DNA of 64,000 nt, from the IMG/VR virus record IMGVR_UViG_3300033182_000678, positions 1 through 64,000 of that record, one strand, 5' to 3'. Of this stretch, positions 29,948 through 42,908 are shown piece after piece; the stretch's first letter is position 1, and every line of letters starts with the position of its first letter. Made by a program: the position numbers and the translations under genes. The notes under the pieces are model-generated. The model worked only from the letters and a program-made list of their open reading frames with translations. It was not told the origin of the DNA and did no database searches. The stretch is from a virus.

Positions 29948-32455
29948 TCAAAAAAATCTTTCAATACTTTTTGTTTTATCTACTACATTGTCCCATGACA
30001 TTGCCTTGTAGAACATACCAATTTTCTTTGTCATTGCCTGTTCAAACATTCTATCATGGTCAATGTGAGTCTTAATTAATTCTAAAATCTGTGGTGGGTC
30101 TTCATAACCTTTATATGCAATTGTATCAAACCCAAACTCATTGTTCTTTAGATACACCCATTTAATCTTACTACCATTTATAATCTTTTCGTATTTCCTA
30201 CCCTCATACCAATATTCTAATAATGAATTATAATTGATAGCGGCCTTAACATGAACAGGTGTTCCTTTTTTATATGTACTGAATGGTGAATCATCATCTT
30301 TCACTTCATACTTTCCAATACCCTTTACACCAATTGGATTCGCCATAACATCATAATGTAAGTTAACCATGTTTCTTTTAAACAATGATATTCTTTCATC
30401 AATCTTTTCCTTTGGAACATCTGCCAATATATCTTCCAATACCTTACTTAATAATTCTTTCATAGCAACTGCAAAGTTACTACGAACCGTATCCAATCCT
30501 TTAACATGAATCTTATTTACCTTACGACCTGCATCATTGATAATTCTTAATCCATATCTTTTCTTTGTAATGAACAACCCACTCTTTGCAACTACCTCTT
30601 GTTTAATATCAAACACATGGTTTTCTTTCTCTACATTACAGAACTTCTTACCAAAGAAATTATAACTTTCATTTAGATAATCTTGTACCTCACTACAAAT
30701 CTCCATAATCCTTTGTGTCATCATTGTATCACTTAGTTTTTGATTAGGAAATCTCTTCTCAACCAATGGAATAGCAGAGGCAAAAATAGAATCAGTATCT
30801 ATGTATATCACATAATCATCATCAGTACCGAGTTCTTTATTATAAAAGTGATTCGTTATCTTCTTACTGAACTTAATTAAGGCTTGACCAGTGAGAGTTG
30901 TTGCCTCTGCATTATCCAAATCATAAAATCTAAATACAGGTAATCCCAATACACCATACATGGAATTCAAAATAATCTTTTGTATGTATTGTCTTCTATC
31001 AAAGTAATCTTCTAATTCTTTATTACCCTCATCATGATACTTCTTAACAAGTTTTCTCATCTCAACTCTTTCGTTGAACCACTTAGTTAGAAGTGCAGGA
31101 ATCAATCCTTGTTTATCTGTACGATATAAAACACCATTAGATGCAATACTAATCTCATTGGTTAATAGATAGTTTTCTAATTCACCATTTGTAAACTTAC
31201 CAATTTCTTTTTCTTTCTTATCTATCATGGTATATGTTTTTACCAAGTCCTTTTTTAAGAACTCCTCTGCATCCCAACCCTCAACCTTACCTAACTTAGT
31301 CTCAGGTGATATATTTAGACTACGAATCACACTTGGATACATAGATGTAATGTCCAAGTCATAAACCCAATCATGTTTACCTGCCTGTGGTTTCTGTACA
31401 TATGCACCTGCAAACTTATCATCATCAAATGTTTTTGGTCTTGGTGGTTTGTTTGGTGCAACAATACCAAGTTTTTTCAGATAAACTAATATTGCACCCT
31501 CAAGATATCTTGAACTCATAAACACTTCTTCATAAGGTATGTGTCCAAGGTGTGCAATACCTCGTGATATCTCAATCAAATTTAATTTCTTATCCAACTC
31601 AACTAATATTTTTACATCTCGGATGTTGTAATCAATGAATGTCTGTAAGTCATTTTCATACAAGTCATTAAGTGTTCCCTCATAATCAACCTTTTTTATA
31701 CCGACCTCTACTTCACCAATATAATCTAATCTATAACTTGATTGTTGAGAGAATGAAAACTTTCTATATAAAGATAGATAGTCTAAACAACTAACTCCTG
31801 CAATAACATATCTCTTTTTAACTTCATTGTAATATACTTCTGAGATAGGTGATAACAAGTTTGCCACACTAACACCCAATACATTTACTGCCCTATTATA
31901 TAGATAAGGAATATCAAAGAAGTCTGAGTTCCAACCACTTAATATTGTTGGTTTGATTTCTAAATACTTTTGGAAAAACTTGTTTAACATTTCGTATTCT
32001 GTATCATATACCTCTACAACTTTATTATCTTTTGTATATGATTGAAGTCTTTTCTTTGCATCAAACACATATGTAAAATATGTTTCTGTCATGAAATCAT
32101 ATAGTGCAATAGAAGTGATTACATTGTTTGCCTTCATCACATCAGGAAAACCATATGTAACCTCTACCTCAATATCAAAGAATACTTTTCTATGTCCATC
32201 TGAAACTTCATCTGAATCTGTATATTGGTCAACTAAAAATCTTGTTGTTGGTGGGACATCTGATTCATGTAGTGTTGGGTCATCTTTATCATAATTAAAT
32301 ACTTTCTTTACTCTATCACCATATAGTGAAACATGTTGACCATTTGAATTTTTTACATAGGCATATTTTTTGTAAGGAACAATAAGATAACCTCTTTTGT
32401 CATCAAATACATGCATTCTTTGTTTACGCACATCATACCAAATATTCTGATACAA
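29948..32455 (-). CDS. 43: DNA polymerase, family B (gp43-like)
   Basis: 835 residues. The N-terminal 3'-5' exonuclease has VFFDIEVEV (Exo I DxE), LSGWNSDFFDIPYLYNR (Exo II) and YNIRDVKILVELDK (Exo III). The polymerase domain has DLDITSMYPSVIRSLNIS (motif A, DxxSLYPS), QKIILNSMYGVLGLPVFRFYD (motif B, Kx3NSxYG) and VIYIDTDSIF (motif C, DTDS). It is the replicative polymerase. The start is TTG 32453-32455 with GAGAGG seven bases upstream; no in-frame ATG or GTG fits, and a stop lies 24 bases before. Shorter than T4 gp43 (898) but complete. Confidence 0.95.
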   Translation of the reverse strand: MYQNIWYDVRKQRMHVFDDKRGYLIVPYKKYAYVKNSNGQHVSLYGDRVKKVFNYDKDDPTLHESDVPPTTRFLVDQYTDSDEVSDGHRKVFFDIEVEVTYGFPDVMKANNVITSIALYDFMTETYFTYVFDAKKRLQSYTKDNKVVEVYDTEYEMLNKFFQKYLEIKPTILSGWNSDFFDIPYLYNRAVNVLGVSVANLLSPISEVYYNEVKKRYVIAGVSCLDYLSLYRKFSFSQQSSYRLDYIGEVEVGIKKVDYEGTLNDLYENDLQTFIDYNIRDVKILVELDKKLNLIEISRGIAHLGHIPYEEVFMSSRYLEGAILVYLKKLGIVAPNKPPRPKTFDDDKFAGAYVQKPQAGKHDWVYDLDITSMYPSVIRSLNISPETKLGKVEGWDAEEFLKKDLVKTYTMIDKKEKEIGKFTNGELENYLLTNEISIASNGVLYRTDKQGLIPALLTKWFNERVEMRKLVKKYHDEGNKELEDYFDRRQYIQKIILNSMYGVLGLPVFRFYDLDNAEATTLTGQALIKFSKKITNHFYNKELGTDDDYVIYIDTDSIFASAIPLVEKRFPNQKLSDTMMTQRIMEICSEVQDYLNESYNFFGKKFCNVEKENHVFDIKQEVVAKSGLFITKKRYGLRIINDAGRKVNKIHVKGLDTVRSNFAVAMKELLSKVLEDILADVPKEKIDERISLFKRNMVNLHYDVMANPIGVKGIGKYEVKDDDSPFSTYKKGTPVHVKAAINYNSLLEYWYEGRKYEKIINGSKIKWVYLKNNEFGFDTIAYKGYEDPPQILELIKTHIDHDRMFEQAMTKKIGMFYKAMSWDNVVDKTKSIERFF

Positions 32456-32543
32456 TCTTAGCCTCTCTCTCGTCTTTTAATCCAAGACTTTTTAACTTTC
32501 TCAGATAAATTTTAGAACCTCTTTTGTTTAGTAATAAATAGTA
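32433..32543 (-). other. Start-less open frame upstream of gp43, possible remnant
   Basis: After a stop near 32544 a frame runs to TGA 32433-32435, overlapping the polymerase start. It encodes KIYLRKLKSLGLKDEREAKIVSEYLV near its end, which looks like real protein sequence (amphipathic, charged). No ATG, GTG or TTG start exists; AGAGG lies seven bases before an ATT codon. It could be a short gene using a rare ATT/CTG start, or the tail of a gene cut by insertion of the receptor gene immediately upstream. Low confidence. Confidence 0.25.
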
Positions 32544-32579
32544 TTATTTTTTTTCAATCTTTAAATTATTTTTGTAAGT

Positions 32580-32605
32580 GGGGGGAAATAAATGATATTC
32601 CCCCC
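32580..32605 (-). terminator. GC-rich hairpin after the TonB receptor gene
   Basis: GGGGGGAA (32580-32587) pairs with TTCCCCCC (32598-32605) around a 10-base loop. It starts 11 bases after the receptor stop codon. It is by far the most stable simple hairpin near here in a very AT-rich genome. No T-run follows on the minus strand, so it could be a terminator aided by Rho or an mRNA-stabilising 3' hairpin. Confidence 0.65.
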
Positions 32606-32615
32606 ATAATTACAA

Positions 32616-35351
32616 TTAGAAGTTAATACTCACTCCAATATTTGCATATCTTGGTGTTCCTAAGAATACCTCAGCGTTATGTGGAGCGTGTACTTTATCA
32701 CCCCAACTATTGTATTGTGAATTATCAACTGCATCTTGTACAAATACTTCATCAAGAGCATTGAAGATATGACCTGTTAAGGAAATATCATATCCCTTGA
32801 TTGGAAGTTTGTATGATGCGTGTAAATCAAGTTTTGAGTAGCCTGGTGCTTCCCAAACTTGAGCTCTGTCTGCATCTGAATCACTACCATCGTATTCACG
32901 AGCTGATGGTGACCAATCTGCATAGTTTTTGTCGTATGTCTTGTATAGTGCCTGTAGTCTTAGACCTTTTAATGGTTTAAGAGTAACACCTAAAATATAA
33001 GATGTTTGTGGCATATCACCAACATATAGACCATCAAGAGCATATTGATACTCTGTAGTTGTTAATCCAACTACTTGACCTTCTTCATTATACTCATTCT
33101 CTTGATAAGTACCCTCTGCATCTCCATCAAATTTCCAATTACCAAATGATGCAATTAAATCAAGTTCAACTAAATCATTAGGTTTTACTTTGGTTTCAAT
33201 TTCAATACCTGAGTGTTTTTGATTTACACCTCTTAGGAAGATAATATCAGTATCACCTGATGAACCTTGACCTGTTGTTACAGATTTTGTAAGGTTTCTA
33301 TCTTGCCAATCAGTATCATAGGCACTTACTCTAACTCCAAGTTTTTGTGTACCGAAGTTTGCACCAATCTCATTATGTAGGAACTTTTCGTTCGCTGGGT
33401 CTGATGCTACGGTTCCATCAAAGTAGATAACATTATCTAAGATAGGAGCTTTTTCTACAAGTCCTGTATTTACGAATAATCCAAGATTATCGTTTACATT
33501 AAATAATGCACCACCTTTAACTTGGTAAGTAGTGATTGGGTCTGCAGTTATTACTGCATCCTCAATAGTGAAGTGGTCTTGATAAGAGTATTCAATACTT
33601 GATACTCCACCCATACCATATAGGTTTAGTTTTTCTGTAGTGTAATTACCTTGTACAAATCCACCAATCCAATCTACGGTTGTTTCATTGAAGTATGCAA
33701 TCTCGTCACCGAGTCTTACGACTTTACCTTCTTCAAAGTTGTCGTCTGCATAATCAACATAGTAATCACCACCCAATAAATCACGAACTTCACGAGCGTG
33801 TTCTATACGAGCAGTTCTCCAATCAATACCTGTTTGTAATTCTAAATTATCACTAACTACATAGTTTAGTTTAGAAATCAAACCATAGGTATTTTGACGA
33901 TTAATAGAGTTTCTTAAGATACCTGTTGAACGATTTTCAGTAATTGAGAAGTTCTCATCAATGTTATCAGAATTTTGTGCAATCTCAGCATCCCAATCCC
34001 ATGTCCAAGGTGAACTTGCATACCAAGCATTTCCTTCAATGGCTGGTTTTCTACTGACACTACCATAAGTTCCAGTACCACCACCAGAACCACCACTCCA
34101 ATACAATACTGAACTTAGTCTTGTCTTGTCATTGATGGTTAAGAAGTGATTTAAATTCACTAATGGTTTGTGAAAGAAGTTTTCTCTTTCGTTCAAGAAG
34201 TTCTTGTTGAATCTACTTGTTGTGTTCGCTCCATACATATACCAGTATTGTTTACCTGTATATGATGGGTCAATAGGTGCGACATTCTGATTGAACAATC
34301 TACCAGCTTCAGTAGAGAATTTGTTACCTTCTGCAAATGCATCAGTATCATATCCATCAATACTACCTGCTAACTCTTGTGAGTAAGTTGCAATATTCTG
34401 TTTGTATAGATTTTGTCCATGTCGTTGTGGAGCACCGATGGCGTATAATTCAAATCGTTGGTCTTCACTTACTGCATAACTACCACCAAAGTAGTATGCC
34501 CAAGCATCAGTCCATGTACCATCTATAATTCCATCACCAGTTTTACGAACAATAGTTCCACTTAAAGCCAACTTGTCATTTAATAATAGACCAGTATTGT
34601 AGTTGAAAGTAGTTTTAAGAAAACCACCATCTCCAGCTTCTTGTTTGAACTTCCCACCTTTTTCAAAAGATGTAGGGTCGGTTATGATGTTCATAGTTCC
34701 ACCAATAGAAGGTGTTGCCAAATTAACAGCTGATAGACCTCTCTGAACCTGAATTGAAGATGTAGCATCACCTACTCCATCCCAATTAGACCAGTAAACC
34801 CATCCGTTCTCCATATCATTTTGGGGAACACCATTTATCATCACTGCAACATTTCTTTGATTAAAACCACGAATGTTGATACGAGCATCACCCGCACCAC
34901 CACCTTGTTGTGTTGCATATACACTTGGTGTAGTGTTAAGAATCATTGGAATGTCTTGTGAACCAAGTCTTACTTCCATTTCTTCTTTACTAACATTAGT
35001 ATAGGCCACAGGTGTTGTTTCAGATGCACGAGATGCTAACACCTCAACATCTGATAAGGAAACTACATCAAAATCCAATACGAAGTTTAATGTAGTGATA
35101 CCCTCAACAACTACTGATTTAGTTATTGAAGAGTAACCAATGAAAGAAGCCACTACATCATAGGTTCCATTAGAAACATCAATAGAAAAAGCACCATCTT
35201 TATCTGATACTCCACCTAAATCTGTTCCAAGAACTACAACATTAGCTCCCTCAAGTGGTTTTGAGTCAACATCAACAATAGTTCCAACAATAGATTGTGC
35301 GAACAATCCTGTCATCAATACCATTGATGCTAATAGATTACGATATTTCAT
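32616..35351 (-). CDS. TonB-dependent outer-membrane receptor
   Basis: 911 residues from ATG 35349-35351, set by AAGGAG six bases upstream (another ATG at 35355-35357 is too close to it). Signal peptide KYRNLLASMVLMTGLFAQS; then a carboxypeptidase-regulatory-like domain (about 20-100, IVGTIVDVDSKPLEGANV, GVSDKDGAFSIDV); a plug domain (about 105-225, IPMILNTTPSVYATQQGG, RINIRGFNQRNVAVMINGVP, IQVQRGLSA, GGTMNII); and a large beta barrel with aromatic-rich strands ending in a terminal Phe (YANIGVSINF). Such proteins take up siderophores, cobalamin or glycans with TonB energy. A full-length gene inside a phage replication block is very unusual. It has no operon partner. Confidence 0.9.
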   Translation of the reverse strand: MKYRNLLASMVLMTGLFAQSIVGTIVDVDSKPLEGANVVVLGTDLGGVSDKDGAFSIDVSNGTYDVVASFIGYSSITKSVVVEGITTLNFVLDFDVVSLSDVEVLASRASETTPVAYTNVSKEEMEVRLGSQDIPMILNTTPSVYATQQGGGAGDARINIRGFNQRNVAVMINGVPQNDMENGWVYWSNWDGVGDATSSIQVQRGLSAVNLATPSIGGTMNIITDPTSFEKGGKFKQEAGDGGFLKTTFNYNTGLLLNDKLALSGTIVRKTGDGIIDGTWTDAWAYYFGGSYAVSEDQRFELYAIGAPQRHGQNLYKQNIATYSQELAGSIDGYDTDAFAEGNKFSTEAGRLFNQNVAPIDPSYTGKQYWYMYGANTTSRFNKNFLNERENFFHKPLVNLNHFLTINDKTRLSSVLYWSGGSGGGTGTYGSVSRKPAIEGNAWYASSPWTWDWDAEIAQNSDNIDENFSITENRSTGILRNSINRQNTYGLISKLNYVVSDNLELQTGIDWRTARIEHAREVRDLLGGDYYVDYADDNFEEGKVVRLGDEIAYFNETTVDWIGGFVQGNYTTEKLNLYGMGGVSSIEYSYQDHFTIEDAVITADPITTYQVKGGALFNVNDNLGLFVNTGLVEKAPILDNVIYFDGTVASDPANEKFLHNEIGANFGTQKLGVRVSAYDTDWQDRNLTKSVTTGQGSSGDTDIIFLRGVNQKHSGIEIETKVKPNDLVELDLIASFGNWKFDGDAEGTYQENEYNEEGQVVGLTTTEYQYALDGLYVGDMPQTSYILGVTLKPLKGLRLQALYKTYDKNYADWSPSAREYDGSDSDADRAQVWEAPGYSKLDLHASYKLPIKGYDISLTGHIFNALDEVFVQDAVDNSQYNSWGDKVHAPHNAEVFLGTPRYANIGVSINF

Positions 35352-35428
35352 AATCATCTCCTTGTTTGTTTACTTGTGAACAGCACATTTTTATTCTGGT
35401 GTGCTTTCTGCCAGGGTATGTGAAATTT

Positions 35429-37843
35429 TTAACCATTTGCATATTCTTGGTCATCATTATCACCTGCGGTTGGTGTGATTTCTTCTATATCACAAAAATC
35501 ACCATCACAGAATTTCTCAACATTTGCCTCTTCTGCTTTAATTACACCGAATGATAACTTACCTAATTTTTTAATTTGTTTATTGTATTCTTTTTCATCT
35601 ATTGCCTCATATGGCATTTGTGGATATGCACCCCAATCATGTCTTGGTAATAGTGATATACCCTTTAGATGATATTGGAAATAATTCAATACATTTGGTA
35701 TTTCATCTCCCTCTGTTTCAGGATTGAATGTTACGGTACAACTTACTTGGTTATCCGCCCAATGTCTTTGTAGGAATGCTGCTAATGAGAATTGTTCCCA
35801 TATACTTAAATCTTTAGCAGTTCTAATTCCCTCACCTACATCAACTGGTATCTCAACAACTAATGTGGAATCTTCTGAACCAAAAGCAGGTTCAATTTTG
35901 TAACCTGCTTTTTTCAATGGTTCTACTAAATCCGAATTAATTGATAACCTAATTCTTCTAATGTAAAATCTTGATTCAGGATAATGTAAACCTGGTGTTG
36001 AACCTGCTAATAATGATACGGTTCCACTTGGTTTTACACTTGTGGTTTTGATTGATTTTGGAATTGCAAACCAATCTGAATACATCTTATCCCACTCTTG
36101 TATTGTATCATATCCATTCTCCAACCAATTTTTAAACTCATCTAATCCACGATTAGTTACAAACTGAGCTACACCACTAACACTACATCCAATTCTTCTG
36201 TTTCTCAACATCACTCTGTTTGTGTCAGCCCAATGTGTTCTACCAAGTGTTACAGTCTTGGCATATAGATAAGCATATTTAAGTGTTCTCTGATAATCCT
36301 CTAACGAATCATGATTACTTGGAAATGTTTCCACTAAACAACATAACTCATATGATTCAAGTGATTGTTCAAGACAATTATGGATAAACAAACCAGATGA
36401 ACACAAATACTTATCATCCAAAGTAGATGTTATCACACCAAAATTATGTGTATCTTCAACGGTCATATCATAAACATCTTCATATCCATAAAACTCAACT
36501 GATGCAATTTTATGATTCCAAATACCCTGATTGACCATTCCTCTTTTAACATTGGAACAAGAATAACTACAAGTTTTTCTTTTGGATGCTTGATATTCTG
36601 TAAGTGTTTTATGTTCGTTACACACAGGACAATTCCAATTTACCCAAATTGTTCTTTCTTTTCTTTTATCTGATATATGCTTTCTAACACTTTTAGTCAT
36701 TCCATTTTTAATTGATTCAATCATAAAATCTCTTTGATTATTCCAATTTTCTTTTGATTTTTTACCAATCTTTTTTAATGTAGATTTTTTATGATGTTTA
36801 CCATACATACTATTTCTTTCACCAAAATGACCACCATTTTCAAGAGTAGTTTTTTTCATCTTTTCTACATTTACAGGGTCATGCATTGGATTTTTATCTA
36901 ATCTATGTAATCTACTATGTTCCGATTGAGTTATTACATCTAAATTATCCCACCTGTCATTTGTCTTATCAAAATCTTTATGATGAATAGCATATTCTTT
37001 AGCATCAGGTATGTAACCAAGTTCATATTCTGTAATCAATCTATATTGTCTTATACCACTTGCTCTTTTACCAGTTCCTCTTATGTTCCTATAACCTTTG
37101 TTGTCAAAACTATTAAATGGAAATACCGATTCACCTTCTTGTAAATCTTTAAGTTCTTTATATTCACCATTTCTCAACATAATTTTATGGTCAGGTGTAG
37201 CTAACAAATTAGAACCGTCATCTAATGTTAGTTTCCATATTTCAGTATTTTCTTTTGTTTTCCAAGTTTTAGTTGATTGTTTAATAACTACTTTACCATT
37301 TTTATCAACAGAATAAACTGGATATTGAGTACCAACCAAATCTTTAATTGGAACTGCGTTTCTACCATCAGCTACTGCCACTAATGTATCACCAACTACA
37401 CAAGGATTACCACCAGCTACTCTATGGTCTTTATCATCCCCACCATTCTTCATTCTTGAATAGTGTCTCATGTTATCTAACCAAGCCAAACCTGGTTCTC
37501 CGTTATCTACGATTCTTTTTGCGATTTCTGTATAATCCATACCGAGTTCTGCAAATACTGAATTGTTTGATGTCCAACCATATTGGTCTCTATGTGGATT
37601 GACTTTGTAATTTTTCAAGTCTAAATACTCTTCTGAGTCAGGGTCACCAAATACAATTTCTGCAGTATTGTGTGATACAATAGTTTCATCAATATCATTT
37701 TTTGGATTTTTAACAAAGAAGTGATGTTTATCTTCTACTTCAATATCCCACGTCTTTTCTATTTTTCCTTCATCTATTATATCCATAATAGTAACAAGCT
37801 CAAAATCTTCTAAATTAAAATCATTTATACCATATTGATTCAT
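35429..37843 (-). CDS. nrdJ: Class II ribonucleotide reductase, C-terminal half with split-intein C-part and a second intein
   Basis: 804 residues. Residues 1-59 are the C-terminal piece of a split intein, ending IVSHN; Thr60 (TAEIVFGDP) is the first extein residue. Residues 60-147 are reductase; a complete intein follows (148-489, from CVVGDTLV to FIHN); reductase resumes at Cys490 (CLEQSLESYELCC), the catalytic NPC cysteine. The rest includes KPSGTVSLLAGSTPG and the C-terminal CDGDFC redox pair. Spliced with the N-half (38868-39968) it gives a reductase of about 675 residues. The class II enzyme needs adenosylcobalamin and makes dNTPs from NDPs or NTPs. Confidence 0.9.
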   Translation of the reverse strand: MNQYGINDFNLEDFELVTIMDIIDEGKIEKTWDIEVEDKHHFFVKNPKNDIDETIVSHNTAEIVFGDPDSEEYLDLKNYKVNPHRDQYGWTSNNSVFAELGMDYTEIAKRIVDNGEPGLAWLDNMRHYSRMKNGGDDKDHRVAGGNPCVVGDTLVAVADGRNAVPIKDLVGTQYPVYSVDKNGKVVIKQSTKTWKTKENTEIWKLTLDDGSNLLATPDHKIMLRNGEYKELKDLQEGESVFPFNSFDNKGYRNIRGTGKRASGIRQYRLITEYELGYIPDAKEYAIHHKDFDKTNDRWDNLDVITQSEHSRLHRLDKNPMHDPVNVEKMKKTTLENGGHFGERNSMYGKHHKKSTLKKIGKKSKENWNNQRDFMIESIKNGMTKSVRKHISDKRKERTIWVNWNCPVCNEHKTLTEYQASKRKTCSYSCSNVKRGMVNQGIWNHKIASVEFYGYEDVYDMTVEDTHNFGVITSTLDDKYLCSSGLFIHNCLEQSLESYELCCLVETFPSNHDSLEDYQRTLKYAYLYAKTVTLGRTHWADTNRVMLRNRRIGCSVSGVAQFVTNRGLDEFKNWLENGYDTIQEWDKMYSDWFAIPKSIKTTSVKPSGTVSLLAGSTPGLHYPESRFYIRRIRLSINSDLVEPLKKAGYKIEPAFGSEDSTLVVEIPVDVGEGIRTAKDLSIWEQFSLAAFLQRHWADNQVSCTVTFNPETEGDEIPNVLNYFQYHLKGISLLPRHDWGAYPQMPYEAIDEKEYNKQIKKLGKLSFGVIKAEEANVEKFCDGDFCDIEEITPTAGDNDDQEYANG
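36377..37402 (-). mobile_element. Intein with HNH endonuclease in nrdJ
   Basis: 342 residues in frame inside nrdJ. It starts CVVGDTLVAVADG (block A, Cys1), has LLATPDHKIML (block B, TxxH), and ends DDKYLCSSGLFIHN (blocks F and G) before extein Cys. Between lie IHHKDFDKTNDRWDNLDVITQSEHSRLH, an HNH endonuclease core, NUMOD-like segments (NSMYGKHHKKSTLKKIGK) and a Cys4 cluster (CPVC...CSYSC). It is inserted at NP/C of the active site, so only the spliced protein can work. All block residues for splicing look intact. Confidence 0.9.
37667..37843 (-). mobile_element. Split intein C-part of nrdJ
   Basis: First 59 residues of the gene, with DIIDEGKIEKTWDIEVEDKHHFFVKNP (block F-like: tyDIeVedxHxFfv) and ending TIVSHN followed by Thr at +1. 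It matches the C-intein of the fractured-gene arrangement. It pairs with the N-part at 38868-39152 for trans-splicing. Confidence 0.85.
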
Positions 37844-37854
37844 AATTTTATCTC

Positions 37855-38805
37855 CTAATAAACGTCTAACTTGAAATCAAATCCAAGTGATTTCACAGCG
37901 TTAAATTTTAACTTATTTTTTTCTTTGTCAAATTCAAGTGTATAAGTACTTTTTGTTTCAACAATTAGATTATCTTTGGGTATATAAAAATCTGGATAAT
38001 ATCGTCTTTTTTTACCATCATAATTATACCATATTTCTGGCATATCTCTCTTTCTATATAAAATATCATTTTCTTTAAATCCTAATTCAAATAACCTATC
38101 TAATGTTTTATTTTCATACCCTTGAATTTTAATTTTCTTTCCCGATGGCATTATATAAAATTTATTAGTGTTATAATATCCACGATACCCACTCAATGCC
38201 TTTTCTGCAAACTCTGGATTATGCATTGCATTTTCTACACCATACAATTCTAACATTCTGTCTCTAAATTCTTTAGTTCCAAATTTGAAATAATCTTTTC
38301 TACCGTACCTTTCAATAATTGTTTCTTTAACCTTCTTCTTAAACTCATCTGTCTGTGTATAATAATCAACGCCATATTCTTTATTTATAAAATCTTTTCT
38401 AATTTGTTTATACTCATCAGAATTCACATACGCTGTAGCACCGTATTTTTCTAAATTAGTTTTCATTGTCTTATGTTTAATTTCCGGAATTTGTTGTGCA
38501 TTATTCACACCGTATCTTCTTTGGAAAGTTTTTATCTTCTTCTCCATTATTTCAGTTTCATTACGCTTTTCTTGTATTTTTTTAATAGAATCTGGAAATT
38601 GAAAGGTGTTTTCATATCCATATTTTTCCTTCATCAATTTAGATTGGTGTTTATATCTCATTTTTTTTGCTTTATTACTCCACGTACATTTCTTACTACA
38701 ATAAAATAAACCACTTTCAAGTCTTAGCCTATAATCTCTATTCTTTTTTGTTTCATACTCTACTCCACAAATCCTACATTTTATTTTTACAATTTCAAGT
38801 GCCAT
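37855..38805 (-). CDS. Free-standing homing endonuclease between nrdJ halves (PD-(D/E)XK type)
   Basis: 316 residues. An N-terminal Cys4 zinc finger (CRICGVEYE, CSKKCTW) is followed by six spaced YG-repeats of about 25-45 residues (KYGYENTFQ, RYGVNNAQQ, KYGATAYVN, EYGVDYYTQ, RYGRKDYFK, LYGVENAMH), a DNA-binding array seen in phage endonucleases. The catalytic end reads RYYPDFYIPKDNLIVETKS, a PD...ExK motif. Located between the split halves of nrdJ, with 11 and 62 base gaps, it most likely cuts intein-free alleles and spreads the insertion. Confidence 0.85.
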   Translation of the reverse strand: MALEIVKIKCRICGVEYETKKNRDYRLRLESGLFYCSKKCTWSNKAKKMRYKHQSKLMKEKYGYENTFQFPDSIKKIQEKRNETEIMEKKIKTFQRRYGVNNAQQIPEIKHKTMKTNLEKYGATAYVNSDEYKQIRKDFINKEYGVDYYTQTDEFKKKVKETIIERYGRKDYFKFGTKEFRDRMLELYGVENAMHNPEFAEKALSGYRGYYNTNKFYIMPSGKKIKIQGYENKTLDRLFELGFKENDILYRKRDMPEIWYNYDGKKRRYYPDFYIPKDNLIVETKSTYTLEFDKEKNKLKFNAVKSLGFDFKLDVY

Positions 38806-38867
38806 TTTATTTCTCCTACATTCAATAATAAATATAAGAAAAGATAAAAAACATACGTTCCCTGATA

Positions 38868-39152
38868 CTATTTTTTTGGTTTTACAAGAAAATCTTTATC
38901 TCTATTTATATCCTTTACCATCTTCCATTCAAATCCAGTATCTTGATTATACACTAATAAAGTGTGTTTTTCTGTAGCTTCATATTCTGTACCATTAAGA
39001 GTTTTTATTTTAAGAACTTTTTGCTCTCCACTATCAAACGTATTCAATACTCGTTTATAACCATCAGCAGTTAAAACTTTATCATCCCTCGTTATTTTTT
39101 CCATTTGTTTGAAACCATCTTCAGTAAGCACTTCATACCATTTAGGTAAGCA
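38868..39152 (-). mobile_element. Split intein N-part of nrdJ
   Basis: 94 residues beginning at Cys (codon 39150-39152). DKVLTADGYKRVLNTF and EATEKHTLL correspond to intein blocks A/N2 and B. It ends with a stop instead of continuing to an endonuclease, so it can only act in trans with the C-part in the next gene. Confidence 0.85.
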
Positions 39153-39968
39153 TCTTCTTACATTACCTGCCACAACACATTTACCGATTAAATTCATAAT
39201 ATCTACGATGGTTGTGATTGTGATTGGTTCACCACTATTTTTTTCTAATACTTTTCTAATATCATTATGAACTTCTTCTAAAGGGTCTGGCCCACTTGAT
39301 ACTCCACCAAAACCTTTGATAGGTTCTCCTGCTAATCTGATTTTACTATAATCAAATTCAACTGGTGCCTGACCATGAAAATAACTCTCTAATAATAACC
39401 TTAAAGATTCTACCCAACCCTCACGAGTATCAGGTATTTCAAACACTTGTGATGTTCTATCTTTATCAATACCCTTAACTATTATTTCTCCAGCACCTTT
39501 TGTATCAAAACCAACACCAACACCTAACATACTTGCATCCATTAAGAAACAAAATGGTTTTGAATAATCTTCTTTAATGGTTTTTGTTGATACAAATGCA
39601 CAATTATTTAGTGCTGCATATAAACCTTTTTCTTCGGTGATTGGTGTTCCCATAGCCCACAATCCACGACCTGGTGGTAAGAATTTCATATTGAAAATTC
39701 TATCATACATTTCTTGAGCAGATTTTTGAGCTTGCCAAGGATTCCAACCTAATTGATGTGATTCAATCCAATTCATTTGCATTGTATAAGTTCCCTCTAC
39801 AACTCGTTGTACGGTTTCCCACCAACGCTCATTTTTTCCGTCTTCTTTAATTCTTGAGTATGTTCGCATATAAACTAATTCACCTAATCCGTTAAAACCG
39901 AATGGTGCTTTTTTTCTTTTGTACTTACTTACAAAATTTTCTGATAACTTAAACTTATGTTCTCCCAT
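38868..39968 (-). CDS. nrdJ: Class II ribonucleotide reductase, N-terminal half with split-intein N-part
   Basis: 366 residues. Residues 1-272 are reductase: FLPPGRGLWAMGTP, LNNCAFVST (first catalytic Cys) and MLGVGVGFDTKGAG, ending CVVAGNVRR. Cys273 begins the split intein N-part, CLPKWYEVLTEDGFKQME, with block B EYEATEKHTLLVY. The frame stops at 38868 after KPKK. Trans-splicing with the C-half (35429-37843) would restore NVRR/TAEI. The gene is the first of this cluster; the 39969-40096 gap upstream is AT-rich with a good ribosome site (AAGGAG) and repeated TATATA. Confidence 0.9.
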   Translation of the reverse strand: MGEHKFKLSENFVSKYKRKKAPFGFNGLGELVYMRTYSRIKEDGKNERWWETVQRVVEGTYTMQMNWIESHQLGWNPWQAQKSAQEMYDRIFNMKFLPPGRGLWAMGTPITEEKGLYAALNNCAFVSTKTIKEDYSKPFCFLMDASMLGVGVGFDTKGAGEIIVKGIDKDRTSQVFEIPDTREGWVESLRLLLESYFHGQAPVEFDYSKIRLAGEPIKGFGGVSSGPDPLEEVHNDIRKVLEKNSGEPITITTIVDIMNLIGKCVVAGNVRRCLPKWYEVLTEDGFKQMEKITRDDKVLTADGYKRVLNTFDSGEQKVLKIKTLNGTEYEATEKHTLLVYNQDTGFEWKMVKDINRDKDFLVKPKK

Positions 39969-40096
39969 TGTAACAAACTCCTTATTGTAAACTTACTTTT
40001 TAATTGTCTTCACTATATATGTATTATATATATGGTGGAATACTCCTGAATATATATAAATTTTTTTAATTTTTTATTAAAAGTTTTTTAGAAGTT

Positions 40097-40567
40097 TTAT
40101 TCAAACCCATCTGAATCAAAATCCTTCTTCTTTTGAGCCAAGGTTTTTCTAATATACTCATCTGCATTATTCATTTTACCTTGTGCATCTCTTCCACCTT
40201 GAGTGCTACTTTCATAAATCATAATGTAACCTGTATTGGTATTTATGGTTGCTGGAAAGGTTATTCCATCTGGCCCAAATCTATTTTTAATAACATGAAA
40301 ACGACCTGTATTAGCAATCTTATCTTCCACTTTTCTACTCATACTCATAACAAAATCAGCTGTCATAACTTTACTATAATCTTCACTAACCTTTTCAGCA
40401 CCAATCACATCTTCTTCAAGAGCAGAATTGTGTGAATACACATCATTAACGAAAAACATATGCGTATCTACAACTGTAATATCAACAGTATATTCTTCAC
40501 CCACCAATTCAATCAAAACGATTTCATCCATTACAAAATCTTCTGGATTTAAGTTATGCATTTTCAT
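40097..40567 (-). CDS. 41: gp41 helicase, C-terminal part with split-intein C-part
   Basis: 156 residues. Residues 1-47 are intein (VGEEYTVDITVVDTHMFFVNDVYSHN), the final HN followed by Ser48 as +1. The extein SALEEDVIGAEKVSEDYSKVMTADFVMSMSRK, then RFHVIKNRFGPDG, is the C-terminal end of the DnaB-type gp41 helicase. ATG 40565-40567 is preceded by AAGGAG seven bases upstream and overlaps the endonuclease stop by 14 bases. With the N-part it makes about 455 helicase residues. Residues 1-47 (40427-40567) are the intein piece. Confidence 0.9.
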   Translation of the reverse strand: MKMHNLNPEDFVMDEIVLIELVGEEYTVDITVVDTHMFFVNDVYSHNSALEEDVIGAEKVSEDYSKVMTADFVMSMSRKVEDKIANTGRFHVIKNRFGPDGITFPATINTNTGYIMIYESSTQGGRDAQGKMNNADEYIRKTLAQKKKDFDSDGFE

Positions 40568-41534
40568 TTACAAACTCCTTACATTTTTTAATCACACCAA
40601 CCATATCATTTTTATATTCATTATCATTTATCCGCAAAATTTTATATCCTTTACTTTCTAAAATAATATCTCTTTTAACATCAAGATTTTTATCGTGCCA
40701 ATACTCACAATCAAATTCAATTATAGAATTTCCACACTTAAAATCCGGCATTATTATTTTATTCGGATAATTACTCTCGTGATTTACAAAAAACTGATAT
40801 TCTTTATTTAATTCAGCAAAATAAGATTTCTTCTTTAACTCATCTTCAAGCTTTTCGTATACTCCCCAAAATAATTCTTGTGATATCTTACTATATCCTT
40901 TATTAAATAATTTTGATGATGTTTGAGTAATAGCTAATAACCATTCTTTATACTTTTCTTTTCCAGCTTCATATCCATACTTTTCAATCATTGTTTCTTC
41001 TGTTATTGCCTTTTTCTTGTTGCTTTCTTTATATCTTTCTAAACCTAGCTTTTCACCATACTTTTTTACATAATATTCCAATGAAGAATTATCTTTTATA
41101 TTTCTACAAATTTCTAACCCTCTTTCTTCACCAAATTCATCAATGTATCTTTGTTTAGATACCAAATAACCATGACGGCTATTCCTTTTTTTCCACCTAC
41201 TATATCCATCTTCTATACCATACCGTTTTTGGTATTCTTCAAGTGATAATCCATTATTCCACTTTTTATTCTTAAAATTTTCCCTTTGAGTTTTAAGTTT
41301 CTTATCTAATCTTTCTTGCCATTTTATTTTACCCAATTCTTCACCATATTTTTCTACACAGGCTTTTAATGAAAATGTATTTTTCTTTTTAATCATTTCA
41401 TTATACCAATCTTTACCATGTTTTTTTATCAATTCTTCTTTTGTTTTACCAAAATTCTTTTTATGATTTTTCCACTTACGAAGTCCTTCTTCTTCGCCAT
41501 ACTTTTTTATCCATGCTTGTTTAACTGATGCCAT
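40554..41534 (-). CDS. Free-standing homing endonuclease between gp41 halves (Vsr-like)
   Basis: 326 residues. At least six repeats of the form KKYGEEEGLRKWKN, EKYGEELGKIKWQE, KRYGIEDGYSRWKK, KKYGEKLGLERYKE make up the N-terminal two thirds and are probably DNA-binding. The C-terminal part, IIEFDCEYWHDKNLDVKRDIILESKGYKILRI, fits the Vsr-like/EDxHD nuclease fold (D..xWH). This kind of enzyme is the one described for fractured genes with split inteins. It sits exactly between the halves of the helicase gene. Confidence 0.85.
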   Translation of the reverse strand: MASVKQAWIKKYGEEEGLRKWKNHKKNFGKTKEELIKKHGKDWYNEMIKKKNTFSLKACVEKYGEELGKIKWQERLDKKLKTQRENFKNKKWNNGLSLEEYQKRYGIEDGYSRWKKRNSRHGYLVSKQRYIDEFGEERGLEICRNIKDNSSLEYYVKKYGEKLGLERYKESNKKKAITEETMIEKYGYEAGKEKYKEWLLAITQTSSKLFNKGYSKISQELFWGVYEKLEDELKKKSYFAELNKEYQFFVNHESNYPNKIIMPDFKCGNSIIEFDCEYWHDKNLDVKRDIILESKGYKILRINDNEYKNDMVGVIKKCKEFVNENA

Positions 41535-41588
41535 TATTGTTCTCCAATATCTTACTCATATATAAATATAACAACATCACAAAAATTT

Positions 41589-41870
41589 TCACTTTTTATT
41601 CACTTTTTTTGTAAATAATTTATCACCCACTTTCAATCCAGTTGCAATTGATTTCAATTTACCGTACATAACAGGTAAATCGTGATTAGATGAGATAGTT
41701 ATTTCTTTACCAGACTTTAATTTAACTTTATATACTGGTTGCTTCTCAACTGGAAAAACTTTTGTTACTTTTTTATATCCATCGTGAGTTAAAATTTCAT
41801 CACCCTCTTTTATTTTTCCAATTTCCATTTTACCATTTTCAGTTTCCACTTTATCAGTTAAAATGTGGCA
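41589..41870 (-). mobile_element. Split intein N-part of gp41
   Basis: 93 residues from Cys347 of the helicase gene. The pattern KMEIGKIKEGDEILTHDGYKKVTKVF and EITISSNHDLPV gives blocks A, N2 and B. The partner is residues 1-47 of the gene at 40097-40567. Confidence 0.85.
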
Positions 41871-42908
41871 ACGATTTGCCTGAGATGCAGTCCATACTGG
41901 TATGTTGAACTCTCCTGCCATACCTCTCAACTCTTCATAGATATGTCCTAACTGATGTCTTTTTTCACTAAAATGTTGTGTGGATTTCATGATGTCTGCA
42001 TAATCCACAATCACTAAATCTGGTTTGAGTCCCTGCATTTCACATTGTTGTAAATGTGCAGTAAGTGTATTAACACTTGCAGTTCTTGTTGGATAATATT
42101 TTATTATCAACTCACCCTTTAACTTTGAAATCTTGTTTTGTACTTCATCTTTATAATATTGTAAGTTACCTGTTGGTTGTCCACTTACAATTGTATCATA
42201 TCTTAACCCTACATATTGTGCATTTAACTCTAATGTATAATGAATTACGGTTTTACCTTGTTTGACTGCATGTGCACCTAATGCCTGAAGAGTCCATGAC
42301 TTACCAATACCTGCTGGAGCAACAATAACACCAAGTTCACCACCTGCCAAACCACCATCCATCAAATCATTTACACTATCCCATTGTGTTGGTAAACATT
42401 CTCTTGTTTGTTTAGTTAATCTCTCTTCCAAACCTGTAATATAATCATGACCAATGTCTCTTTCTACACCTGCCTTCATTGCATTATCTATAACACCTTT
42501 TATCTCATCATACTTTTGATTATCTAATAACTCAACTGATTCCATGATGGCACTTTTGATAACTTGGTTCTTACAGAACTCAAGTGATTTTTCTTTTACA
42601 AATTCTAAATCAGGTGATTCACGATGTTGCCATGCACTTCGTAATGAATCAACAATACTCGTCTTTAGTACATCATTTTCCACATCATCAATGACAACTT
42701 TTAATGCTTCCATTGTCGGTGGGGATTTATACTTTTTAAAATAATCTATTATTGATTTTACAAGAAACTTGTTTGAATCAGAATCAAAATAACTTACTTC
42801 TAAAATGTCACCGATAGTTTTTATAAACTTCGTATCAACTATTAAAGATGTAATAATTTTACTCTGAAAAGATGTTCCATATTTAATTAAAGATTCACTC
42901 ATAACCAT
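41589..42908 (-). CDS. 41: gp41 replicative helicase, N-terminal part with split-intein N-part
   Basis: 439 residues (a second ATG at 42900-42902 may be the real start). LGVIVAPAGIGKSWTLQALG (about 192-211) is Walker A; DLVIVDYADIMKS (about 297-309) is Walker B; VWTASQANR (about 338-346) is the conserved helicase motif where the intein begins. Cys347 (CHILTDKVETENGK, codon 41868-41870) starts the intein N-part, with block B ITISSNHDLPVM, and the frame ends VNKK. It resembles split inteins known from phage gp41 helicases. The hexameric enzyme unwinds DNA 5'-3' at the fork. Confidence 0.9.
   Translation of the reverse strand: MVMSESLIKYGTSFQSKIITSLIVDTKFIKTIGDILEVSYFDSDSNKFLVKSIIDYFKKYKSPPTMEALKVVIDDVENDVLKTSIVDSLRSAWQHRESPDLEFVKEKSLEFCKNQVIKSAIMESVELLDNQKYDEIKGVIDNAMKAGVERDIGHDYITGLEERLTKQTRECLPTQWDSVNDLMDGGLAGGELGVIVAPAGIGKSWTLQALGAHAVKQGKTVIHYTLELNAQYVGLRYDTIVSGQPTGNLQYYKDEVQNKISKLKGELIIKYYPTRTASVNTLTAHLQQCEMQGLKPDLVIVDYADIMKSTQHFSEKRHQLGHIYEELRGMAGEFNIPVWTASQANRCHILTDKVETENGKMEIGKIKEGDEILTHDGYKKVTKVFPVEKQPVYKVKLKSGKEITISSNHDLPVMYGKLKSIATGLKVGDKLFTKKVNKK

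Follow-up and report, generated by a model that had tools for sequence, protein, structure and literature searches.

Why would a T4-like phage keep an intact gene for a TonB-dependent receptor (TBDR) among its replication genes, and what would such an outer-membrane protein do during infection? The locus that raises this question lies in a stretch of 64 kb (the window) that was analyzed out of a 79,974-base virus record. Here, the TBDR gene (32616-35351, minus strand) is preceded by nrdJ (35429-39968, minus strand), which encodes a B12-dependent class II ribonucleotide reductase and is interrupted by intein and homing-endonuclease ORFs, and followed by gp43 (29948-32455, minus strand), which encodes a family-B DNA polymerase and uses a TTG start where relatives have ATG at the same position. 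All three genes share one strand, and in relatives a sigma-70-like promoter precedes gp43. The surrounding block also includes genes for a DnaB-like helicase (gp41-like), an exonuclease, UvsX and a single-strand binding protein, and thyX was found in the phage as well; these matches agree with the T4-like replication setting, with nrdJ and gp43 as neighbors, that had been proposed in a first-pass annotation of the window. Inteins and homing-endonuclease-like ORFs split both nrdJ and the gp41-like helicase gene (35429-42908), while the nrdJ of several relatives is free of them.

The TBDR ORF extends from 32616 to 35357 and encodes 913 amino acids if counted from the mechanically assigned first start (ATG 35357); ATG 35351 (35349-35351) shows better spacing to the Shine-Dalgarno sequence AAGGAG (35358-35363, minus strand; read from the sequence), which lies 6 nt 5' of it and has a GGAG-type core in the relatives compared. 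This start gives 911 amino acids, the length initially reported. The protein is composed, in order, of a signal peptide, a carboxypeptidase-regulatory-like domain (CarbopepD_reg_2, 3.5e-16), a TonB box, a plug (PF07715, 8.7e-15) and a barrel. The N-terminal Sec signal peptide, MKYRNLLASMVLMTGLFAQ, was read directly off the sequence, and the AlphaFold2 model (82-row alignment as input; mean pLDDT 85.9) shows an N-terminal helix there as well as the plug and a barrel that ends in a C-terminal Phe. The motif LSDVEVLASRA before the plug represents a putative TonB-binding box, of which the consensus VEVLASRA is retained in phage and cellular alignment rows. Plug, large barrel with an aromatic C-terminus, TonB box and signal peptide together are the features of a TonB-dependent transporter, and the best solved-structure matches of the model in Foldseek were TBDRs (E down to 1e-41). 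The ORF, the Pfam matches, the model and the structure search, along with >100 syntenic homologs, thus confirm that an intact, full-length TBDR is encoded between nrdJ and gp43.

Among solved structures, E. coli BtuB, FhuA, Fiu and FecA share the plug-barrel fold of the phage TBDR; sequence identity to BtuB and to siderophore TBDRs, on the other hand, is only 12-13%, BtuB and FhuA do not have the extra regulatory-like domain, and the structure comparison provided no evidence for a ligand in common with any of the four. Membership in the SusC/RagA family (TIGR04056) was rejected, as the score was 64.9 bits as compared to a cut-off of 368; the N-terminal domain and the plug of that family match the phage TBDR but its barrel does not.

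A G+C-rich, terminator-like hairpin (32572-32615, minus strand; -20.6 kcal/mol, z -3.84) is located directly 3' of the TBDR gene, as the first-pass annotation had noted, and the relatives compared have such a hairpin in the corresponding position. The strong U run present in relatives is missing in this phage; because its U run is weak, the hairpin was not called in a terminator scan of the window. A start-less coding remnant suggested to lie next to the receptor gene, at about 32452-32550, has no counterpart among relatives and was thus discarded.

When viral contigs were scanned with the TBDR sequence, a relative was encoded in 316 stretches, of which the best 80 show at least 71% identity over the whole length. 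Nearly all of these relatives are located in the nrdJ-gp43 interval on the same strand, and the same slot holds TBDRs with 66-93% identity in >100 viral loci. An independent scan with gp43 placed a TBDR before gp43 in every close locus with enough upstream sequence. The gaps are short, i.e., 58-93 nt between nrdJ and TBDR and usually 78-154 nt between TBDR and gp43. The possibility that the gene reflects an assembly chimera, or bacterial DNA within the viral record, could appeal to a G+C content slightly above that of the flanks (0.37 vs 0.31). However, the same junctions occur across >100 viral contigs, and sister phages show a clean empty site; the recurrence of the junctions rules out a chimeric join at the TBDR edges, an explanation to which we assign a negligible probability. 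The phage TBDR is under purifying selection, with a median dN/dS of 0.165 over 188 pairs, as compared to 0.124 for gp43 and 0.081 for nrdJ.

Presence of the TBDR in the slot is common, not obligatory. Loci with a more distant gp43 serve as natural controls. In L436-L440, only about 104 nt separate nrdJ (about 81% identical) from gp43 and the TBDR is absent; three of these empty gaps were inspected and contained neither the leader described below nor the hairpin. In three others (L435, L442 and L488) the slot is filled by a gene identified by motif and read as glutamine synthetase, and in L048, L319 and L424 the order is nrdJ, glutamine synthetase, TBDR. As sister phages thus have the slot empty, with glutamine synthetase, or with both cargo genes, the nrdJ-gp43 interval represents a cargo site; as some phages with the same nrdJ (80-85% identical) carry no TBDR, the replication system does not depend on it. 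Moreover, three loci (L035, L049 and L526) have nrdJ (79-82%) and TBDR (72-74%) similar to those studied here but a gp43 of another type (25-27%), which indicates that the pair moves between phage backbones.

Additional TBDR-like proteins were observed outside this group. Searches of INPHARED phage genome records yielded 12 weak matches, none of them a close relative. Weak matches to the plug region were seen in huge phages (LR745206.1 and LR756501-LR756503), and two near-full-length matches with 30% identity in unannotated gut phage records (MT837399.1 and MT837128.1); phrog_5687, of unknown function, also matches the TBDR. These matches suggest that other phages also carry TBDR-like proteins.

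The 5' leader of the TBDR gene contains an H-type pseudoknot (35382-35414, minus strand), supported by covariation. P1 (35411-35414 with 35396-35399) is of the ACAGG/CCUGU type and P2 (35400-35405 with 35382-35387) of the GACACA/UGUGUC type; an A-rich loop 3 occupies 35388-35395, and there is no loop between P2 and P1. Across 56 sequences 96.7% of cells pair, as compared to at most 52% in slid versions of the element, and P2 pairs in all 56. Both helices covary, with changes on both sides in 6 of 11 pairs; the number of both-side-changed cells was 46 as compared to 10.5 in shuffles, and none of 500 shuffles reached as high a number. Rfam provided no match at gathering score (RAGATH-19 alone appeared, with 15.5 vs 85.6 bits). 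The preQ1-I riboswitch, which we take to be similar in appearance, differs in having a loop 2; the absence of loop 2 here and of an Rfam match led us to reject this assignment.

A pattern scan of viral contigs found the element at 115 further loci, with a TBDR start directly after it in 105 and the contig stretch ending at that point in the other 10. It accompanies the TBDR in four loci where the gene upstream is not nrdJ but encodes a conserved membrane protein (L044, L076, L331 and L369; an Hsp20-like gene lies near the latter in the first three), and it adjoins the TBDR rather than nrdJ where glutamine synthetase intervenes. The idea that the pseudoknot represents the 3' end of nrdJ was thus rejected. 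As the element follows the TBDR with or without nrdJ, and as none was found elsewhere in the phage loci searched, it is the TBDR's own leader; leader RNA, TBDR and terminator-like hairpin form one cassette. With its covarying structure 5' of a single gene family, the element classifies as a structured cis-acting leader RNA, which may be either a small-molecule riboswitch or a protein-bound operator. Operators of the latter sort are exemplified by T4 gene 32. The pseudoknot, compact, covarying and without an Rfam match, is an addition to known RNA elements.

To trace the origin of the receptor, bacterial genomes were scanned, and the closest relatives were found in Fidelibacterota (Marinimicrobia), followed by other FCB-type phyla (44-51% identity). 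A strong match was present in 111 of 199 sampled Fidelibacterota genomes, usually one in each. The Fidelibacterota proteins, mostly 57-73% identical over the full length, belong to the same orthologous family and share domains, TonB box and loops; the phage gene differs in its setting among replication genes and in the pseudoknot leader that precedes it. No convincing match to this leader was found at the cellular loci searched, and inheritance of the element from bacteria was rejected. In trees with 141 and 49 rows the phage TBDRs form one clade inside those of Fidelibacterota (support 100/100 in the 49-row tree), which suggests that Marinimicrobia are the hosts of this phage clade. Only one cellular row is nested in the phage clade, i.e., L160/L244, a 4,266-base Marinimicrobia MAG contig with bacterial neighbors; phage monophyly without it was rejected (P = 0.011; AU test). 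The nesting and this rejection suggest that the gene was later transferred once from a phage to a bacterium, or the placement may reflect an error in the MAG. Overall, synteny and trees point to a probable single, old acquisition from Marinimicrobia bacteria. The Marinimicrobia-type source considered at the outset is therefore probably right, whereas recent capture, also considered then, is rejected by the synteny in >100 contigs together with the empty site in sister phages.

One function proposed for the receptor was uptake of a nutrient, in particular of cobalamin for the B12-dependent NrdJ. In most of the phages nrdJ lies upstream of the TBDR and travels with it, as this explanation would predict. 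However, the TBDR has neither specific similarity to BtuB, which was only the 44th Foldseek match and is some 300 residues shorter, nor a cobalamin regulatory context. An Rfam search around nine close cellular orthologs found no element, and thus no cobalamin riboswitch there, and no cobalamin-transport gene was recognized among the recurrent neighbors of cellular orthologs. Phages with 80-85% identical nrdJ do without the TBDR, as described above, and others carry the TBDR away from nrdJ. The link to the reductase thus did not hold up, and we consider cobalamin uptake very unlikely; nutrient uptake as such stands as the leading idea.

The neighbors of the cellular orthologs provide a different indication of the substrate. 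Nearly all the neighbors of interest share the strand of the TBDR. The commonest of them was a phosphodiesterase/nucleotide pyrophosphatase of type I (PF01663; the three that were tested scored 304-325 bits), located immediately downstream of the TBDR (within 600 nt) in 13 of the 68 cellular loci with enough sequence, in records of Balneolota, Bacteroidota, Ignavibacteriota, Calditrichota, Chlorobiota and KSB1. As there was one strong PF01663 copy per genome in all five genomes checked, we estimate the probability of chance adjacency at approx. 1e-4 per genome. A deoxynucleoside kinase (PF01712) is encoded directly downstream of the TBDR in two loci (L161 and L210). When the position lists of both matches were compared across Fidelibacterota genomes, PF01712 was found within 1.7 kb of the TBDR on the same strand in seven (G002, G003, G099, G129, G156, G172 and G176), as compared to 0.1-0.2 genomes expected by chance (an estimate that assumes 1-2 copies per genome); in four of the seven it is located 97-291 nt downstream. 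The kinase was also found near the TBDR in one Cloacimonadota, and an S1/P1 nuclease (PF02265) in 3 loci; about a dozen loci had SRAP upstream. Two of these loci, L301 (kinase) and L305 (S1/P1 nuclease and SRAP), encode more distant receptors (33-37% identity), and the cellular receptors that are closest in the tree often have no adjacent kinase or phosphodiesterase.

The phosphodiesterase, kinase and nuclease neighbors suggest nucleotides, nucleosides or nucleic-acid fragments as the TBDR substrate. No nucleotide-specific TBDR was found among known structures for comparison. Alternatively, the TBDR could import another nutrient, for which phosphodiester-linked phosphorus, NAD-like cofactors, peptides and iron chelates are examples: many different phosphodiesters are substrates of the NPP family, SRAP does not belong to the enzymes of nucleotide uptake, and none of the partner enzymes was found in any phage locus searched. 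The position of the deoxynucleoside kinase gene directly 3' of the TBDR in several Fidelibacterota, with an S1/P1 nuclease nearby in other loci, argues against this alternative, which we regard as possible but doubtful.

Receptor masking was the other function suggested initially: the phage TBDR would compete with, or replace, a host ortholog used by rival phages and thus exclude superinfection. FhuA and other TBDRs commonly serve as receptors for phages, the T5 pb5-FhuA and Llp-FhuA complexes were among the Foldseek matches, and the phage TBDR is a close homolog of a host gene. If masking were its role, the extracellular loops might be diversified; however, among phage TBDRs loop identity equals strand identity (0.76 each; loop limits were assigned by hand from the model's secondary structure), and loop similarity between phage and Fidelibacterota (0.59) is the same as that within Fidelibacterota (0.58). 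The conserved loops and the TonB box fit retained transport in the predicted structure, and the loops show no signs of an arms race. Masking also leaves the placement among replication genes and the leader RNA unexplained. Phage genes that alter the host's outer membrane during infection, as the TBDR would, include those for T5 Llp, which binds FhuA, and for the Lc porin of PA-2, a phage-encoded outer-membrane protein. Both of these exclude superinfection, whereas the phage TBDR is a predicted active transporter with conserved loops. Nothing found here favored masking, and we consider it unlikely.

The salvage neighbors and the lack of a cobalamin riboswitch favor nucleotide-type import over both cobalamin uptake and receptor masking. 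We thus lean, with moderate confidence, towards an auxiliary metabolic cassette that would bring in nucleotides, nucleosides or fragments of nucleic acid to supply phage DNA synthesis. According to this model, a T4-like phage clade keeps in its replication block a pseudoknot-led TBDR of probable Marinimicrobia origin, which would be expressed during infection, exported and inserted into the membrane through the Sec and Bam systems of the host, and energized by host TonB/ExbBD. Nucleotides, nucleosides or short pieces of nucleic acid would then be taken up in greater amounts and pass through host kinases and phage NrdJ and ThyX into phage DNA synthesis, and the pseudoknot would probably tune TBDR translation. 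A more speculative extension, put forward tentatively, is that lytic phages run their own DNA-precursor importer under a pseudoknot riboswitch or translational operator that would report the nucleotide state of the infected cell. The TBDR gene is host-derived, fixed in phage genomes within a phage context and under selection, as is typical of a phage auxiliary metabolic gene, and marine T4-like phages likewise keep other host-derived metabolic genes, e.g. the glutamine synthetase in the same slot.

Our literature search found no earlier report of a conserved phage TBDR, and mention in preprints or subscription papers may exist; a "TonB-dependent receptor" among the virion genes of pelagiphage Skadi was taken as a clue to adsorption (PMC10504331). 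The finding of a TBDR in phages leads to a testable claim on the source of phage DNA precursors, and the TBDR family across Fidelibacterota and related phyla gains a substrate hypothesis. To our knowledge, known phage metabolic genes act inside the cell; a conserved and selected outer-membrane transporter thus suggests that certain phages may refit their host during infection so that it feeds on external sources while virus is made.
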